From Flavobacteriaceae bacterium (GTDB lineage: Bacteria; Bacteroidota; Bacteroidia; Flavobacteriales; Flavobacteriaceae), in assembly GCA_024644745.1 (NCBI GenBank), contig JAHEHF010000014.1, positions 1 to 49,928 of the forward strand: a DNA stretch of 49,928 nt, written 5' to 3'. Both the position numbers and the translations under genes were made by a program. Below are positions 28,201 to 34,312 of the stretch, one piece after another. The notes beneath the pieces are model-generated. The model did no database searches. It was not told the DNA's origin and saw only the letters and a list, made by a program, of their open reading frames with translations. The first letter of the stretch is position 1, and each line of letters opens with the position of its first letter.

Positions 28201-28623
28201 TCATGTTTTATTGATCAATAATTTCTGCTTGTGATCTTTCATGATCTCTTTTATGATGTTAAATATTTTCTTTTTGACAAATCGGAATTTTAAAACATAA
28301 TTGTCAAGGTCCTTTTTAATAGATTGATGTTCTCTGTCAACTTCTTTGTCATATTCCTTATTAAAAGTTTCAATGACCACGCCCACGTGTTTGTTATGAG
28401 AAAGAATCCTTTCCATCAGGTCTGTTCCAAGATTTCCCGATTCCTTTAGTTTCCTGATTAGTTTTTGTGTTGTGTCATACAATTTTGAAGAGCTGAGATC
28501 AAGAAAATGGGCACTTAGCAAGTGTTCCAGAAATATCTCCTCATCAGCCATAAATTCTATTTCATTTATCCATTGTATAGTCTGTTCATGTAAATCATAA
28601 ATATTTTGAACTTCTTTTTTCAT
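28201..28623 (-). CDS. Hypothetical helical protein
   Basis: I do not recognise this protein. It has 140 residues, no signal peptide and no membrane segment, and looks almost entirely helical with many charged residues. The C-terminal half (about 75-140) is Lys-rich with heptad-like spacing, compatible with a coiled coil or a four-helix bundle. Histidines and glutamates spread over the first 90 residues leave room for a hemerythrin-like or ferritin-like fold, but no clear motif is visible. ATG at 28623 is preferred over an in-frame TTG nine bases upstream. It follows hsp20 and its terminator, so it is probably expressed by read-through and may belong to the same stress response. Confidence 0.75.
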   Translation of the reverse strand: MKKEVQNIYDLHEQTIQWINEIEFMADEEIFLEHLLSAHFLDLSSSKLYDTTQKLIRKLKESGNLGTDLMERILSHNKHVGVVIETFNKEYDKEVDREHQSIKKDLDNYVLKFRFVKKKIFNIIKEIMKDHKQKLLINKT

Positions 28624-28657
28624 AACTACCAAATGCTTAAAATTTATACTTAGGGTA

Positions 28658-28687: not shown

Positions 28688-29131
28688 TCAATGAACTTCA
28701 ATTACTCTCTTGTGAGTAATTTCATCCTTGTGAAGTTTGTTCAAAACTAATTTCAAGATACCACGTTTGTAAGTTGCATCGATCTTTTCTTCTTCATTGA
28801 TATTATCGGGTAATGTCAATGTTCTTGAAAATGAACTGTAATTGTATTCTCTGCGTGTGAAGTCTTCTTCTTTTTCCTCCAATTCTTCTTTGTTCTCTGC
28901 AGAAATTTTTAACATTCCATTTTCAATAGAAATTTCAAAATCTTTTTTTGTAAAACCAGGAGCTGCAATATCAATTTCGAAGTGATCTTTTGTTTCTTTC
29001 ACATTCATGGCAGGCATCCATCTGTTTTCCATAAAAAAATCATCAGTTAACAATCTGTCCGTACCCAATAGGTCAGGGAGCATATTGTCAAACCAAGGTA
29101 ATCCGGGTCTTTTAAATTTTACTAAAGTCAT
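28688..29131 (-). CDS. Hsp20/alpha-crystallin small heat-shock protein
   Basis: ATP-independent holdase chaperone of 147 residues. The alpha-crystallin domain spans about 40-140 (AMNVKETKDHFEIDIAAPGF at its start and YKRGILKLVLNK near the end) with a short basic C-terminal tail. Cytoplasmic. Its promoter (29160-29190) is a textbook Bacteroidota promoter preceded by a perfect FNR-type site (29212-29225), so it is probably under the nearby Crp/Fnr-type response regulator rather than, or besides, heat control. Confidence 0.95.
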   Translation of the reverse strand: MTLVKFKRPGLPWFDNMLPDLLGTDRLLTDDFFMENRWMPAMNVKETKDHFEIDIAAPGFTKKDFEISIENGMLKISAENKEELEEKEEDFTRREYNYSSFSRTLTLPDNINEEEKIDATYKRGILKLVLNKLHKDEITHKRVIEVH

Positions 29132-29159: not shown

Positions 29160-29225
29160 CAAATCTAAAATTCACTAATTGTTTTCACAATGACGGGTAT
29201 CAATCAGAACGTTGATATTGATCAA
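29160..29225 (-). promoter_or_regulatory. hsp20 promoter with perfect FNR-type site
   Basis: On the minus strand: TTGAT-ATTG-ATCAA at 29225-29212, 21 bp, TTG at 29190-29188, 20 bp, TAGATTTG at 29167-29160. The site centre is 58.5 bp upstream of the last G of the -7 element, i.e. about -62 to -63, a class I activator position. The same geometry recurs at four other promoters between here and 31983. Confidence 0.85.
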
Positions 29226-29275: not shown

Positions 29276-29785
29276 TTACAAGAAAATACCTTCTTCATCC
29301 AGTTTAACCCGCATGGTTTTATCACCATTTTCCAAAACAAGTTTGTACTGCTTCTTGTAGGTTTCGCCAGTTGATTTATAACTGACTTTGTAAACATCCT
29401 TGGCTATTTTCCATCCTGGAAATCTGTCAGCGACTGCAGTTGCCACTTCTCTTGGTACGGCAACATCTTTAAATTTTTCAATGGTGTATAATATTTTTCC
29501 GTCTCTGTCATAAGCGGCTAAAATTTTACCTGCTGGAATGTAAAAATACACCCGATACAATTCACTTCCGTCCTCGTAAAACTCAGAACTTTTAATATCG
29601 AATTTTGCAACCATATCCCTCAAAAGTTTGACGGGAACCGCTGCTTCAGTCTGATCCACACTATTCAGATATTTATAATTGGTGGCACGAACCTCAATTT
29701 CTGGCAACGTGCCCTCATCAACAACCTGAGCGTAGAACTGGGTGGTTAACCCAAGCGTCAATAAACCTAATAATAATTTTTTCAT
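29276..29785 (-). CDS. Secreted PepSY-like protein
   Basis: 169 residues with a signal peptide (1-19, ending FYAQ) and a PepSY-like (DUF2874-type) body. The region VAVPREVATAVADRFPGWKIAKDVYKV is the usual helix-strand signature of that fold, followed by YKLVLENGDKTMRVKLDEEG. Predicted periplasmic or surface protein; function not established. Automatic annotation sometimes mislabels such flavobacterial proteins as nicotinate-nucleotide adenylyltransferase, which nothing in this sequence supports. It has its own promoter with an FNR-like site at 29829-29894 and its own terminator. Confidence 0.8.
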   Translation of the reverse strand: MKKLLLGLLTLGLTTQFYAQVVDEGTLPEIEVRATNYKYLNSVDQTEAAVPVKLLRDMVAKFDIKSSEFYEDGSELYRVYFYIPAGKILAAYDRDGKILYTIEKFKDVAVPREVATAVADRFPGWKIAKDVYKVSYKSTGETYKKQYKLVLENGDKTMRVKLDEEGIFL

Positions 29786-29828
29786 GATGATTTTGGTTTT
29801 AATTAATACTGTTACTCATTGCTACATA

Positions 29829-29894
29829 TAAAATTACGCTTGACAAGCCTTAAACACAATGACCTGGCTCATCCTGTACAATGATCTTTATCAG
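29829..29894 (-). promoter_or_regulatory. PepSY-like gene promoter with FNR-like site
   Basis: On the minus strand: a site with plus-strand sequence ATGAT-CTTT-ATCAG (29881-29894; core TGAT-N4-ATCA intact), 21 bp, TTG at 29859-29857, 20 bp, TAATTTTA at 29836-29829 (one mismatch to TAnnTTTG). Spacings are identical to the hsp20 promoter. The gene start is 43 bp past the -7 element. Confidence 0.7.
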
Positions 29895-29902
29895 TATTAT
29901 AT

Positions 29903-29934
29903 AAAAAAGAACAGGAAGTACCCACTTCCTGTTC
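29903..29934 (-). terminator. Terminator of small transcript 1
   Basis: Perfect 11-bp stem (GAACAGGAAGT / ACTTCCTGTTC), 4-nt loop, followed by six T on the minus strand. Near-identical to the terminator at 30337-30369, differing in the loop. Confidence 0.92.
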
Positions 29935-30067
29935 CCTTTCAAATCAAAAATATATTTTACATTTATAGCACCTTTTACATTAAACTCCTTATCAGATCTT
30001 ATCCGTATTCAGGTGACCAAAACCTATAAAACTTATTCCTGATTCTCTAAACTAAACTGTCTTCAAT

Positions 30068-30130
30068 TTAGTTCTGATTTTGTTTCATAGAATTTGTTTT
30101 GACAAATTTCGGAACAAGGTGTTCCTCCAT
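30068..30130 (-). pseudogene. Small ORF of transcript 1, cut short by a stop
   Basis: ATG at 30130, 11 bp past the -7 element, opens a 20-residue peptide (MEEHLVPKFVKTNSMKQNQN). It is homologous to the first 20 residues of the small ORF at 30451-30567. The TAA at 30068-30070 replaces a CAA there, and a second in-frame stop occurs eight codons later. Beyond those stops the frame still reads RNKFYRF, like the other copy. I infer a recently truncated paralogue, or a regulatory RNA in which the peptide no longer matters. Confidence 0.45.
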
Positions 30131-30140
30131 TTAATAGACC

Positions 30141-30206
30141 CAAAGATATTGGTGCATATAAAGCAAAACAATGATCGAGGTCAATGAATTGATTGACGCC
30201 CATCAA
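30141..30206 (-). promoter_or_regulatory. Promoter of small transcript 1 with FNR-type site
   Basis: On the minus strand: a site with plus-strand sequence TTGAC-GCCC-ATCAA (30193-30206), 21 bp, TTG at 30171-30169, 20 bp, TATCTTTG at 30148-30141. Predicted transcription start about 30137, leaving a leader of about 7 nt before the small ORF. Confidence 0.82.
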
Positions 30207-30336
30207 TTTTTTCCTTTTTGGTTCCATAAATAAGCCTCTGACCCTTTAATCAAAAAATCAGGCCCGGGGCAGATCATCATGAAATCGATTTGCATTTCAT
30301 CGAAAGAGACAAACTGTGGCAAACAAATAAAATGTC
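30207..30336. other. Spacer between the duplicated units
   Basis: 130 bp without a supportable gene. It holds a small inverted repeat ATGAAAT / ATTTCAT (30280-30301). Next to the site of copy 1, the stretch around 30220-30240 weakly resembles the 3' end of the membrane-protein gene that follows copy 2, possibly a decayed remnant of the duplicated segment. Confidence 0.3.
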
Positions 30337-30369
30337 AAAAAAAGAACAGGAAGTAAATACTTCCTGTTC
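30337..30369 (-). terminator. Terminator of small transcript 2
   Basis: Perfect 11-bp stem (GAACAGGAAGT / ACTTCCTGTTC), loop AAAT in plus-strand reading, followed by seven T on the minus strand. Confidence 0.92.
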
Positions 30370-30450
30370 CCTTCGAACCAAAAATATATCTTACATTAAG
30401 AGTACCTTTTCATTTAATACCTTCTCAGATATTTAAAAGAAATCAGGCTA

Positions 30451-30567
30451 CTAAAACCTATAAAACTTATTCCTGGTCCTACAAACCAAACTGACTGGGT
30501 CAATTTGATTCTGTCTTTGTTTCACAGCATTTGTTTTGATAAATTTCTGAACACTTAATTCTTCCAT
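30451..30567 (-). CDS. Small peptide gene, 38 residues
   Basis: ATG at 30567, 13 bp past a TAnnTTTG element, opens 38 codons ending TAG: MEELSVQKFIKTNAVKQRQN then QIDPVSLVCRTRNKFYRF. The peptide is basic, has one cysteine, no signal peptide and no membrane helix, and ends in an aromatic/basic KFYRF tail. Coding is supported by comparison with copy 1: the start is shared, several differences are synonymous (GAG/GAA, AAC/AAT, TTA/TTG) and the only length difference is exactly one codon. I do not recognise the peptide. The neighbouring frame is also open over the conserved block (GISFIGF), so an RNA role or another frame is possible. Confidence 0.5.
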   Translation of the reverse strand: MEELSVQKFIKTNAVKQRQNQIDPVSLVCRTRNKFYRF

Positions 30568-30579
30568 TTAATAATAGTC

Positions 30580-30645
30580 CAAAGTTATATGAGCCTTATA
30601 AACAAAACAATAATCAAAATCAATAAAAAAATTGATTCTTATCAA
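30580..30645 (-). promoter_or_regulatory. Promoter of small transcript 2 with perfect FNR-type site
   Basis: On the minus strand: a site with plus-strand sequence TTGAT-TCTT-ATCAA (30632-30645), 21 bp, TTG at 30610-30608, 20 bp, TAACTTTG at 30587-30580. Predicted start about 30576, so a near-leaderless mRNA for the 38-residue frame. Confidence 0.85.
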
Positions 30646-30660
30646 TTAAAAGGTTCTTTT

Positions 30661-31047
30661 TCAAAAAGGAACCCATTGATAGGCCTGATTCAACAAAAGC
30701 ACTCCAATAATCAGCAATAAAAACAATAAGAACTGAAACCATTTAAAATCTATTTTTTCCATCCAATTCCAGGCAAATCCCGGAAAGGCAAATTGACTTA
30801 TCCCTTTGGCCAAACTAAAAAAACCGAACAAAGTAATGATGGTCCTCCAGTCTTTTACCCAAATGTTATGGGCAACAATATTCACAAGTCCTATGATAAT
30901 GGCCATAATGGATATAAGGATCATGAATTTATCGTCTTTGGCAAACTGAAACATCTGTTTGATCCGTTTAGGATAAATGAGAAGGAGGATAAAAAAAGTA
31001 ACAAAGAACCAACCCCAAAACTTCGCTAAAAAAATAGAAATTTCCAT
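30661..31047 (-). CDS. Small integral membrane protein, unknown function
   Basis: 128 residues with four hydrophobic helices (about 8-25, 42-60, 68-85 and 103-121) and Trp-rich loops (WVKDWRT, FAWNWMEKIDFKWFQF). I do not recognise a family with confidence. The start is 3 bp after the uspA stop, so it is translated from the uspA transcript and should share the FNR-type promoter at 31918-31983. Its stop lies in an imperfect hairpin (30652-30673) that could end the operon. Confidence 0.8.
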   Translation of the reverse strand: MEISIFLAKFWGWFFVTFFILLLIYPKRIKQMFQFAKDDKFMILISIMAIIIGLVNIVAHNIWVKDWRTIITLFGFFSLAKGISQFAFPGFAWNWMEKIDFKWFQFLLFLLLIIGVLLLNQAYQWVPF

Positions 31048-31050
31048 AAA

Positions 31051-31896
31051 CTATTCTTTAAGATGATGCATTACAAACAAAGGAATCTTTGTGTGAAAAC
31101 TCAATTCACGTACTTTGGGTCTGAAAAACATTCTTTGAAAAAAATTATAATGACGGGCCACAACGGCGATCATATCAACGTCACCCCGGCTTTGGGTAAA
31201 GCAATTCACTGACTCTTCAAAATCAGGATTTGTAAGGGTATGGTAACTGTGATTGATTTTTTCCAAAAAGGAGGACAATAGTTTTTTGTTATTAGTTTGC
31301 TCTTCATCCAGAGCATCTTTTTCACTAAAATGAAGAATCCTAACAGTTGCATCATGCTTCTTGGCAAGTTTTAGCAAAGCCGCAAGGTCATGCCGTTCAT
31401 ATTTGATCCTGAAATCTGTCGGAAAAGTTATTTCTTTAAGAGATTTGAATTTGCTGTTCTCAGGAACGGCAATAACATCACAGGTCGTTTTTAATATCAC
31501 GTCTCCCGTATTGCTTCCCATAAAGATTTCTTTGGCCCCGGTAGCTCCCTTGGTCCCCATGACAATTAAATCAATTTTCTTTTCCTCAACGGATTGTTTT
31601 ATCGCTTGGATAAAAAGATTATAGTCACTTATCGTTCTAAATTTGTGCTTGTCATTCTTGGGCAGTTCCGCGATGAGATCTTTCATTCCCTTTTTGGATG
31701 CTTCGTGCAACTCTCCTTCAAGTATGACCAATTGGCTGACATCATTTGAAAGCAGCTCATCGTTTGTGATATAAGGGATGCGAAAAACATTCAATAAAAA
31801 AAATTCACAAGATTCATCCTTGAACAATTGCAGCGCATAATGGATCGCATTCACGGAAATCTTTGAGAAATCGGTTGGTAAAAGTATTCTCTTCAT
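31051..31896 (-). CDS. Tandem-domain universal stress protein (UspA family)
   Basis: 281 residues with two Usp domains. The first (about 1-145) keeps the ATP-binding pattern G-2X-G-9X-G-S in MGTKGATGAKEIFMGSN. The second (about 150-281) is degenerate at that site, as is usual in tandem Usps. ATG at 31896 is preferred to an in-frame TTG six bases upstream, since the family begins MKRILLPTDFS. Cytoplasmic; typically induced by growth arrest, low oxygen or respiratory stress. The promoter carries two FNR-type sites. First gene of a two-gene operon with the small membrane protein. Confidence 0.93.
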   Translation of the reverse strand: MKRILLPTDFSKISVNAIHYALQLFKDESCEFFLLNVFRIPYITNDELLSNDVSQLVILEGELHEASKKGMKDLIAELPKNDKHKFRTISDYNLFIQAIKQSVEEKKIDLIVMGTKGATGAKEIFMGSNTGDVILKTTCDVIAVPENSKFKSLKEITFPTDFRIKYERHDLAALLKLAKKHDATVRILHFSEKDALDEEQTNNKKLLSSFLEKINHSYHTLTNPDFEESVNCFTQSRGDVDMIAVVARHYNFFQRMFFRPKVRELSFHTKIPLFVMHHLKE

Positions 31897-31917
31897 GATC
31901 AAAAATTAAGGCATACT

Positions 31918-31983
31918 TAAAACTATGCCGAAACTTTGATAAAACCACTGATTTGGATCAATACAATGAATGATTTTAATCAA
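31918..31983 (-). promoter_or_regulatory. uspA promoter with two FNR-type sites
   Basis: The distal site, plus-strand ATGAT-TTTA-ATCAA (31970-31983), is followed on the minus strand by 21 bp, a GTG in place of TTG (31948-31946), 20 bp, and TAGTTTTA (31925-31918; one mismatch to TAnnTTTG). A second site, plus-strand CTGAT-TTGG-ATCAA, lies at 31948-31961, 22 bp nearer the start, centred near -41, a class II-like position. Weak core elements plus two sites suggest strong activator dependence. Confidence 0.7.
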
Positions 31984-31985
31984 TT

Positions 31986-33017
31986 CTAATGAATGCTAAG
32001 CAGCTTTTTTTTATCCAGAATACTAATTTTATTCCTGTTTGTCATGATCAGTTTCTCATCCTTAAAATCAGTAAGTGTTCTTGTTAAGGTCTCTTTGGCA
32101 ATTCCAAGAATGCTGGCCAGGTCAGATCTTGAAATCTCAATATCTTCCTGACTGCCTTCTTTGGTCTGTAATTCCAAAATGGCATCTGCTGTTTTTTTTC
32201 TAACCGAATCATAGGCCAGCCTCATTAAATGCTGTTTTATCTGATCGAGGTCACTTGATAATAAATCCATAAAATTAAAGCTGAGTTGCGGATTGTTCTT
32301 GATCAGGTCCTGCAGTTCCCGCTTTTGAATTCTGATTAGTTTTGTTGGTTTAATAGCCTCTGCGTTTTCTGAGTAAGGTTTATTACTGAGCAAGGAGGTA
32401 AATCCAAAAAAGCTTTTCCCTTTAAAAATTTCCGTGATGAGCTCCTTTCCATCCTGATTTACCTGATAGGTTTTAACTTCTCCATCAACGACATAATAAA
32501 TATAATTACTAACGTTTCCCTGACAATAAATCGTGCTGCCCGTTTTGTAATCCAGTTTTTCTTTTAAATGAAAGGCCTTTTCAATTTCATCGATCCTCCA
32601 TTTTTTAGAGATCATGGTCTCATGTTGATTGGCTTTCTCCATTATGGCATATCGCTTCAGTCTTGATTCCACGGCGCTGAGCAATTCTGACTCTTCGAAA
32701 GGTTTTGTGATGTAGTCACTGGCCCCAAGGTCCATTCCTTTTCTTATATCTTCATGTTTGGTTTTGGCAGACATAAAGATAAATGGAACATTTTGCAAGG
32801 CAATATTACGCATGACTATTTGCAAAACCCCGTAGCCATCTATTTCTGGCATCAGAATGTCACAAATGATCAGATCCGGTTTAAAAAAAGCAGCCTTTTC
32901 CAATCCCTCCTTTCCGTTACTCGATGTGATGACATTATAATTGGCCAATTGTAAGATTTCAGCCGTATTCTCTCTCATTACCTGATCGTCCTCAATAATT
33001 AAAATCTTTTTTTTCAT
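31986..33017 (-). CDS. Response regulator fused to Crp/Fnr DNA-binding module
   Basis: 343 residues in three parts: a receiver domain (1-120; acidic E9/D10/D11, phospho-acceptor D53 in ICDILMP, K105 in TKPF), a cyclic-nucleotide-binding-fold domain (about 145-250) and a Crp-type winged HTH (about 270-340). The recognition helix reads GIAKETLTRTL: E309, T312 and R313 align with the E-x-x-S-R of FNR that reads TTGAT/ATCAA. There is no FNR-type iron-sulfur cysteine cluster (only two cysteines), so the input is probably phosphorylation by the kinase encoded 26 bp upstream. I infer it activates the FNR-type sites found at five nearby promoters. It could also respond to a small ligand. Confidence 0.92.
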   Translation of the reverse strand: MKKKILIIEDDQVMRENTAEILQLANYNVITSSNGKEGLEKAAFFKPDLIICDILMPEIDGYGVLQIVMRNIALQNVPFIFMSAKTKHEDIRKGMDLGASDYITKPFEESELLSAVESRLKRYAIMEKANQHETMISKKWRIDEIEKAFHLKEKLDYKTGSTIYCQGNVSNYIYYVVDGEVKTYQVNQDGKELITEIFKGKSFFGFTSLLSNKPYSENAEAIKPTKLIRIQKRELQDLIKNNPQLSFNFMDLLSSDLDQIKQHLMRLAYDSVRKKTADAILELQTKEGSQEDIEISRSDLASILGIAKETLTRTLTDFKDEKLIMTNRNKISILDKKKLLSIH

Positions 33018-33043: not shown

Positions 33044-34312
33044 TCAAATATTAACTTTTAAAAATTCCGATACTTCTTTTTTAATAATCGGTAACTTTAA
33101 AATTACTGTTGTTCCCTCATTTTCTTCACTTTCGACCCGAATGGTACCCCGGAGTTTATCCATGTGCCTTTTCACAATGTTCAACCCGATTCCGGTACCC
33201 TGCACGGGAAAGGCATTCCTCGCCCTGAAAAATCGATCAAAAACATGATCTGCAGCTTCCTTTGGAATACCAATTCCCCAGTCTCTTATTGTTATGGTAA
33301 GCTGGTCCTTCAATTCTATTTTCATTTCAATTTTAGAATGGCTTAAGGAATATTTAATGGCATTGTGGAGCACATTCCTGATGATAATACCAACCACCTT
33401 CTGATCGTGTAAAATGTCAGCCGGACTATGACACTGGACCACATCGATCCACTGACCCTCTTTCAGCAGAGGTTGCGAATCCTTCACAATTGAACTCACC
33501 AGGTCACACATTTTAAATTCGGAAACCTGGAAGACATAATCATCAGACTCAACCCTCTCGAGATACAAGAAATCATCAAGCATGGAATTTAACTGGTATA
33601 CCAGGGTTTTTATCGTATTTACGTGATTCTCTATTTTTTCATGGGGCTGCTGCTGATTGTATTTTTCAATCAATCCGGCGGAAGTCAGGATTCCACTCAA
33701 AGGCGTTTTGAATTCGTGAGAGGCGAGTGAAACAAACTTTGTTTGCATCAAATTTAACTTCTTTTCCTTTTCAAAGGCCTTTTTCACTTTTATCTCTGCT
33801 GAAATCCTATCCTTGATCTCATCTTTCAGCATCTTGTTAGACCGCTCCAGTTCCTTCACAACAGCTGTCAGCTGGTTGGTCCCCTTCTTGACTTCATCTT
33901 CAAGGGTTCTGTTGTACGCTCTGATCCGGTTCTCCCTTCTCTTTCTGGCACTTATTTCCGAAACCAGGGCCTTGGCATATATTTCTCCATTCAGTTCAAA
34001 ATAGTTCAATCCGATTTCCAGGTCAAGTATGGATCCGTTCTTGTGTAATCCAAAGAATTCACGGCCTTTGGATATCTTTCGTTTTTTTTGGTTTTTTAAG
34101 TAGGCATCAAAGAAGTTGCGATGCGCTTCACGATTGGCCTCAGGCATGAGCAATTCAATTTTTTTACCCAATAATTCCCCTTCATTATAACCAAAGATCT
34201 CTTCTATGGCATAATTATTCATCATGATGACGCCATCCTGATTGGCCACGCAAATCCCTTCCTGTAAAGAGTCAAAACAAATTTTATAAAAAACTTCATC
34301 ACTTTTTACCAT
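33044..34312 (-). CDS. PAS-domain histidine kinase, FixL-like
   Basis: 422-residue soluble kinase without membrane helices: an N-terminal PAS domain (about 5-125), a coiled linker (about 125-190), HisKA (phospho-accepting H199 in ASHEFKTPLSG) and HATPase (N-box around 313-320, G1 DWGIGIP, G2 GTGIGLNIV). In the PAS domain LMPEANREAHRNFFDAY matches the FixL Fα helix, placing H64 where FixL has its heme-ligating histidine. R84 sits 20 residues later, the same spacing as H200 and R220 of Bradyrhizobium FixL. Heme binding and oxygen sensing are therefore plausible but unproven, since many non-heme PAS domains share part of this motif. Forms an operon with the regulator. Confidence 0.9.
   Translation of the reverse strand: MVKSDEVFYKICFDSLQEGICVANQDGVIMMNNYAIEEIFGYNEGELLGKKIELLMPEANREAHRNFFDAYLKNQKKRKISKGREFFGLHKNGSILDLEIGLNYFELNGEIYAKALVSEISARKRRENRIRAYNRTLEDEVKKGTNQLTAVVKELERSNKMLKDEIKDRISAEIKVKKAFEKEKKLNLMQTKFVSLASHEFKTPLSGILTSAGLIEKYNQQQPHEKIENHVNTIKTLVYQLNSMLDDFLYLERVESDDYVFQVSEFKMCDLVSSIVKDSQPLLKEGQWIDVVQCHSPADILHDQKVVGIIIRNVLHNAIKYSLSHSKIEMKIELKDQLTITIRDWGIGIPKEAADHVFDRFFRARNAFPVQGTGIGLNIVKRHMDKLRGTIRVESEENEGTTVILKLPIIKKEVSEFLKVNI

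Follow-up and report, generated by a model that had tools for sequence, protein, structure and literature searches.

On balance, the sequence favours reading two homologous units in a single intergenic gap as small RNA genes, here called sRNA-1 and sRNA-2, whose direct activator is a response regulator-Crp fusion protein (RR-Crp) encoded nearby. Both units are read from the minus strand of the window, the whole stretch of 49,928 nucleotides of a Flavobacteriaceae contig (JAHEHF010000014.1) that was analysed.

Layout of the gap and its neighbours

The gap is 875 bp long (29786-30660) and lies between two genes of the minus strand. The first of these (30661..31047) codes for a 128-aa protein, predicted by eye to be a membrane protein, which has no Pfam or NCBIfam match and serves as a syntenic marker. 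The second (29276..29785) codes for a 169-aa protein that has no family match and whose N-terminus looks like that of a secreted protein. On the same strand, these two genes are flanked by a universal stress protein (Usp) gene (31051..31902, PF00582) and by hsp20 (28688..29131, PF00011).

After hsp20 comes the gene of a conserved 143-aa protein (28201-28632) that has no Pfam or NCBIfam match and is syntenic in the relative G011. In G005, no hsp20 frame is listed between the gene of the 143-aa protein (L044, 206-652) and the secreted-protein gene. Beside the stress cluster, the window contains SusC/SusD-like genes and several genes of the alpha-amylase type (5672-28150, identified by eye), the last of which adjoins the stress cluster in G011 too.

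An initial annotation of this DNA described two homologous units of about 240 nt in an apparently empty gap, with near-identical terminator stems and a T tract, and this description is borne out. The units form a direct repeat. They match in four ungapped blocks of 47-74 nt each, with 80-83% identity and a spacing of 434-437 nt, and BLAST aligns them at 77% identity over 310 nt (positions 14-323 of a 331-nt query, E 2.5e-57). By BLAST at E<=0.001 there is no third copy in the source genome, and the plasmid collection searched gave no match. The transcript starts of both units are inferred, not mapped. Measured from these starts, the body of sRNA-1 (29903..30136) is 234 nt long and that of sRNA-2 (30337..30575) about 237-239 nt, with the alignment to nine other copies running from 30573 on. 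Both lengths agree with the 235-240 nt foreseen in the initial annotation.

The terminator stem of sRNA-2 occupies 30344..30369. Its arms (30369-30358 and 30355-30344) are complementary in 12 of 12 nt and are followed by seven T (30343-30337). In sRNA-1 the stem occupies 29909..29934, with 11-nt arms (29934-29924 and 29919-29909) followed by six T (29908-29903). The exact terminator pattern is found at two places in the source genome, both of them in this gap.

A consensus promoter had also been claimed for each unit, and half of that consensus holds. A -7 element of the form TAnnTTTG is present in both (TAACTTTG at 30580..30587 for sRNA-2, TATCTTTG at 30141..30148 for sRNA-1), but TTTG stands only 15 nt before it, a gap shorter than the usual Bacteroidetes spacing. 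A generic promoter and terminator scan returned 7 sigma-70-like sites, compared with 6.2 in shuffles, and 0 terminators, both stems being missed.

Conservation, fold and coding content

A DNA search of 100 relatives finds homologues within the genus. Those that were aligned lie in the same gap, downstream of the 128-aa gene. Outside the genus, matches scoring less than about 46 bits were regarded as short A/T-rich or terminator matches. A covariance model (R1) detects the unit in 12 of the 22 genus genomes at E<=0.01. Scores exceed 57 bits in 10 of the 22, nine of which supplied sequences for the model. The window copies score 174.2 bits (sRNA-1) and 180.6 bits (sRNA-2), each being itself among the 10 sequences of the model. 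All six good-quality genus genomes have a match, G016 at only 34.4 bits, and the match in G007 (33 bits) is weak as well.

Among 299 genomes of the family, searched at E<=0.001 with stricter filters, six match. Three of these belong to the genus, and three lie outside it: G205 (71.4 bits), G028 (39.3 bits) and G278 (38.9 bits). Scores of 30-39 bits are unsafe alone, because the near-palindromic terminator lets the opposite strand of a true locus score up to 33 bits; for the same reason, G028 and G278 are assigned by gene context. The unit of G205 has the 128-aa gene on one side and the secreted-protein gene on the other; that of G028 is flanked by an RR-Crp gene and hsp20. In G278, two matches in a row (33.1 and 38.9 bits; 1320-1444 and 1501-1624 of L052) follow the 128-aa gene. 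An alignment of 57 model matches mixed true and opposite-strand matches and was left unused. By model score and gene order, the unit is present in at least one genus besides its own. DNA search and covariance model between them find homologues in the genus and beyond it, contrary to the absence that the initial annotation had named as evidence against itself.

The unit is syntenic in 12 of 13 readable genus loci, the source genome included. The 13 were obtained from 17 genomes with a match to the 128-aa gene by leaving out G002, whose contig ends inside that gene, and G028, G083 and G070, which belong to other genera or families and have no unit downstream of it. The units of G003, G205, G028, G278 and G007 are kept apart from this count. 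The most divergent syntenic units, those of G005, G016 and G006, still have the boxes and the terminator and measure about 200-230 nt. In G003 a divergent unit is flanked by RR-Crp and hsp20, and G010 has no unit.

In a tree of 10 RNAs, the two window copies are sisters with support 1.000, and the duplication therefore arose in their own lineage. Multiplication may recur: G007 has two stems in a row elsewhere (L146), and the two consecutive matches of G278 are a similar case. Two other candidates were rejected. Places in G018, G021, G061 and G077 where only the terminator matches are not taken as units, the best model score being 22.7 bits and the genes in G061, the one place of these that was read, unrelated. 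Nor is the 3' end of the 128-aa gene taken to have been duplicated along with the unit: the local score is 18, against a shuffle mean of 17.3 and a maximum of 26.

The fold has a z-score of -7.29 in sRNA-1 and -6.45 in sRNA-2, and for neither unit does any of 200 shuffles fold as well. Ten copies, two from the window and eight from congeners, were aligned over 274 columns; one further sequence (L011, from G021) did not align and was left out beforehand. The consensus structure of this alignment consists of 47 pairs. It begins with a variable, largely open 5' tail and a small hairpin. Next comes a long, imperfect rod, which has 19 pairs and contains an inner helix, and beside the rod stands the terminator stem.

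On the consensus structure 93.8% of cells are paired, compared with 42.7-56.0% on slid structures, a figure biased towards the consensus, which was itself built from these 10 sequences. The stronger part of the structural evidence comes from changes on both sides of a pair. Such changes affect 17 of the 47 pairs (shuffled mean 8.7; slid versions 2-7) and 31 cells (shuffled mean 11.7); for both counts, 0 of 500 shuffles are as high. Covariation scores 0.332, compared with 0.240 in shuffles. One of the five measures, the number of further pair types, shows no clear excess (44, against a shuffled mean of 41.0, with 62 of 500 shuffles as high). In the terminator stem 8 of 13 pairs are invariant, and an almost invariant CAGGA/TCCTG terminal stem runs through the sRNA family. 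The stem is conserved beyond what a terminator needs.

It is hardly credible that the units are a decaying remnant or a chance repeat without function. Such an origin would agree with the poorly conserved 5' third of the unit, with the very divergent copies of G003, G006 and G016, and with the missing copy of G010. Pairs that change on both sides argue against it, as do the retention of the unit across the genus and the survival of every element in both window copies.

The initial annotation had left the choice between regulatory RNAs and micropeptide genes. In the latter case, the transcripts would be mRNAs for very short peptides. A start at alignment column 70 is common (ATG in 8 of 10 copies, ATG or GTG in 9 of 10; 30088-30086 in unit 1), and unit 2 contains a 38-aa frame (30451-30567). 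However, where the common start is ATG, it opens frames of 3-8 codons. Six of the 10 copies have a frame of three codons, and three others have one of 6 (unit 1), 8 (G001) and 24 codons. No reading frame is conserved among the 10 copies, and the substitutions track RNA pairing. Micropeptide genes are thus very improbable, and that part of the annotation is not supported.

The regulatory-RNA part fares better. As far as can be judged from the letters of the DNA, the units have the general features of intergenic small RNAs: their own promoter element (the -7 element) and terminator, a length within 50-400 nt, a conserved structure with covariation and no conserved open reading frame. Conserved synteny points the same way. 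Both units are very probably intergenic small RNA genes.

Tandem operators and their putative activator

Each unit had been credited with one FNR-type site at the same offset. The boxes are real and the offset is shared, but there are two boxes to each promoter, 22 bp apart. The first box is TTGATaagaATCAA (30645-30632) in sRNA-2 and TTGATgggcGTCAA (30206-30193) in sRNA-1. The complete operators lie at 30608..30645 for sRNA-2, with 1 mismatch to the 37-base tandem pattern TGAY-N4-RTCA-N10-TGAY-N4-RTCATTG, and at 30169..30206 for sRNA-1, with 0 mismatches. Relative to the inferred starts, their box centres lie at about -63.5 and -41.5. The box-to-box distance is exactly 22 bp in 11 of 13 units from 12 genomes, the window counting two; the two exceptions to an exact second box are unit 2 of the window, with 1 mismatch, and G012, where it is degenerate.

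The tandem pattern has 79 matches in 17 of the 22 genus genomes, two palindromic places being counted on both strands, compared with 0 for the reversed control. Five minus-strand sites with at most 1 mismatch fall within 2.8 kb of the window. Besides those of sRNA-2 and sRNA-1, they precede the Usp gene (31946..31982, 1 mismatch), the secreted-protein gene (29857..29893, 1 mismatch, downstream of the sRNA-1 terminator) and hsp20 (29188..29224, 0 mismatches). In 20 Markov windows there are 0 comparable sites at the same threshold. The single box TTGAT-N4-ATCAA occurs at 29 places in the source genome, two of them within the window, and the reversed control at 0.

The operator ahead of the secreted-protein gene also bears on whether a free small RNA is made. 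The unit could instead be a transcription-attenuating cis leader of that gene (29276-29785), which lies on the same strand, with its start codon about 118 nt beyond the terminator. In G010, which is without the unit, an operator lies directly upstream of the secreted-protein gene. A leader is nevertheless quite improbable. The interval from the terminator to the next gene contains at least one further FNR-type box in 12 of 12 syntenic loci. Four of these (G015, G005, G016 and G006) have a complete tandem pair there, and so does the window at 1 mismatch. Two units stand in tandem here, and the unit precedes hsp20 in G003 and G028 and another Usp in G278.

For free small RNAs, the question becomes which protein reads the operators. 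The candidate, RR-Crp (31986..33017, minus strand), is a fusion of a response regulator, a cNMP-binding domain and a Crp HTH (PF00072, PF00027, PF13545, PF00325). Beside it, on the same strand, lies the gene of a PAS histidine kinase (33044..34312; PF00989, PF00512, PF02518), and the gene order is the same in G011. This neighbourhood suggests that kinase and regulator are partners.

RR-Crp is present in 15 of the 22 genus genomes at E<=1e-30. These 15 have 2-12 tandem matches each (77 in total), whereas the seven without it, which are 61-97% complete, have 0, 0, 0, 0, 0, 1 and 1. The chance of finding at least two matches in 15 of 15 against 0 of 7 is 1 in 170,544, a figure too generous given the kinship of the genomes and the incomplete assemblies. 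Inside the sRNA/Usp/hsp20 cluster lie 30 of the 77 matches, and the contrast is weaker when remote matches only are counted: 47 in 11 of the 15 genomes with RR-Crp, against 2 in 2 of the 7 without. G007, which is 61% complete, has an operator-led sRNA-like unit, and RR-Crp was not detected in it. A broad contig search with RR-Crp gave two loci. Another regulator of the site, lost together with RR-Crp, may lie behind the co-occurrence. Nonetheless, the distribution argues that RR-Crp is probably the direct activator of the sRNA genes.

The source genome encodes three Crp-HTH proteins, and the FNR-like 229-aa protein C130 offers a different activator for the same sRNA genes. If C130 were an Fe-S oxygen sensor of the FNR type, the units would be an analogue of enterobacterial FnrS, which provides a precedent. 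The boxes match TTGAT-N4-ATCAA. In FNR, four cysteines ligate the 4Fe-4S cluster, and the five of C130 (5, 8, 54, 60 and 107) suffice for a putative cluster. However, C130 does not explain the operator distribution, because among the 19 of 22 genus genomes that have it are all seven without RR-Crp, with their 0-1 tandem operators. Conversely, it was not found in three genus genomes (67-83% complete) that have 2-3 operators. Genes behind those remote operators that were fetched, a subset, look by eye mainly non-respiratory. Activation by C130 is thus unlikely, and the control by FNR and low oxygen proposed in the initial annotation is not supported as stated: across the 22 genus genomes the boxes follow RR-Crp, not the FNR-like protein.

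Low-oxygen induction is likewise not established by way of RR-Crp, because this protein has no FNR cysteine set. Among 16 aligned sequences, 15 have two cysteine columns in common, of which one falls in the receiver domain, and no other column has a cysteine in at least eight. The cyclic-nucleotide pocket of cAMP-type CRP has a GE...RS motif; at the aligned pocket, RR-Crp reads FGFTS...EN-A in genus sequences, as judged by eye. The HTH helix of RR-Crp, AKETLTR, resembles ETISR of FNR and fits the TTGAT half-site.

Operators are also found away from the stress cluster. In the subset fetched, several precede genes for lipoproteins and leucine-rich-repeat proteins two precede an AMP-dependent synthetase, and there are others, all named by eye. 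One operator cluster lies in G011 (C1:570600-594500; L114, L115, L116), where three of four operators are ahead of lipoprotein-like or leucine-rich-repeat genes and the neighbouring genes open with a similar FFRxIR N-terminus, which suggests surface proteins as part of the regulon. A further cluster is found in G013 (C4:71706-86267). In G002 (C207:8124-8160, L150), TAnnTTTG comes after a tandem operator, with a CAGGA-type terminator stem 238 nt further along, possibly a paralogous sRNA elsewhere in the genome. The small gene behind this unit bears what we take to be a resemblance to a ribosome-hibernation factor.

The proposed circuit and known systems

In the proposed circuit, the PAS kinase next door would phosphorylate RR-Crp. 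The regulator would then bind both FNR-type boxes, which lie two helical turns (22 bp) from each other near -63 and -41, and would activate, besides the sRNAs, the genes for Usp, the secreted protein and hsp20 as well as the remote genes. The sRNA would act in trans, its ACAAAUUCUAUGAA and GAUAA stretches pairing with mRNAs, and would thereby provide RR-Crp with an arm that is negative or serves for fine-tuning.

Both stretches are conserved. In the 5' tail, ACAAAUUCUAUGAA is partly exposed, its columns being unpaired at means of 0.37-0.75. In the rod, the apical GAUAA is exposed (0.76-0.90), with the GGA after it mostly paired. A target search with the exact complement TTCATAGAATTTG was negative: it has 17 places in 22 genomes, six of which are the sRNA genes. 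Eight of the other 11 are antisense to a reading frame, and three lie in or before three different genes. The recurrent places (G011/G017 and G021/G006) are both antisense to a reading frame. Because this search was negative, pairing in trans is proposed from the kind of RNA and not from a result, and the case that the sRNA acts in this way is evenly balanced.

The wider model is tentative. It may be that RR-Crp drives a tandem-box regulon and that a new sRNA family of the rod-and-terminator type, multiplied more than once, forms the riboregulatory arm of this regulon. With the same reserve, this would be a stress circuit so far seen in its own genus and a few other genera of the family.

The initial annotation could name no matching family, and the database agrees: at gathering cut-off, none of the 4227 families of Rfam 15 has a match in the window. 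The best sub-threshold matches are PyrR by bit score (29.5 bits, cut-off 54) and the L20 leader by E-value (E 0.0028, 28.1 bits, cut-off 58.7). The L20 leader and the other sub-threshold matches are taken as chance hairpin matches. Bacteroides-1 RNA (RF01694) at 30389-30457 (24.4 bits, E 0.089), far below its gathering score of 43, is likewise put down to chance.

To our knowledge, few sRNAs have been described in Bacteroidota outside Bacteroides and Flavobacterium. A literature search of open-licence papers found no sRNA tied to an RR-Crp fusion and no described DNA site for this regulator class. It also found no description of the present RNA, and likewise the portions available of PMC9723704 and PMC2864571 contain none. 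By these searches, an intergenic sRNA controlled by a regulator is a known kind, and the RNA family, duplicated in its own lineage, is new. If the model is true, the operator would provide a ready regulon for the RR-Crp class, and the sRNA a testable post-transcriptional arm.

Among known systems to compare are the sRNAs of Flavobacterium psychrophilum. An example is Rfp18, which according to the available part of the source is conserved in its genus and needed for proper metalloprotease mRNA levels (PMC9723704). Rfp18 and other F. psychrophilum sRNAs described there are, like the window RNA, structured, conserved and intergenic RNAs of Flavobacteriaceae (PMC9723704). The comparison is by description only, and the window RNA may be identical with one of them.

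Another comparison is offered by PaiI of Pseudomonas aeruginosa, an sRNA that depends on NarXL, as stated in the part of the source available (PMC5703892). On that partial account, it is likened to the window RNAs, by description only, as an sRNA that is the output of a two-component system. It differs, we presume, in phylum and in regulator class.

Finally, FnrS is an FNR-activated sRNA of enterobacteria: short, intergenic, terminated and controlled from an FNR-type site. The window units are likewise short, intergenic, terminated RNAs with an FNR-type site. They differ from FnrS in having two boxes 22 bp apart, and in operators that track RR-Crp rather than an FNR-like protein.
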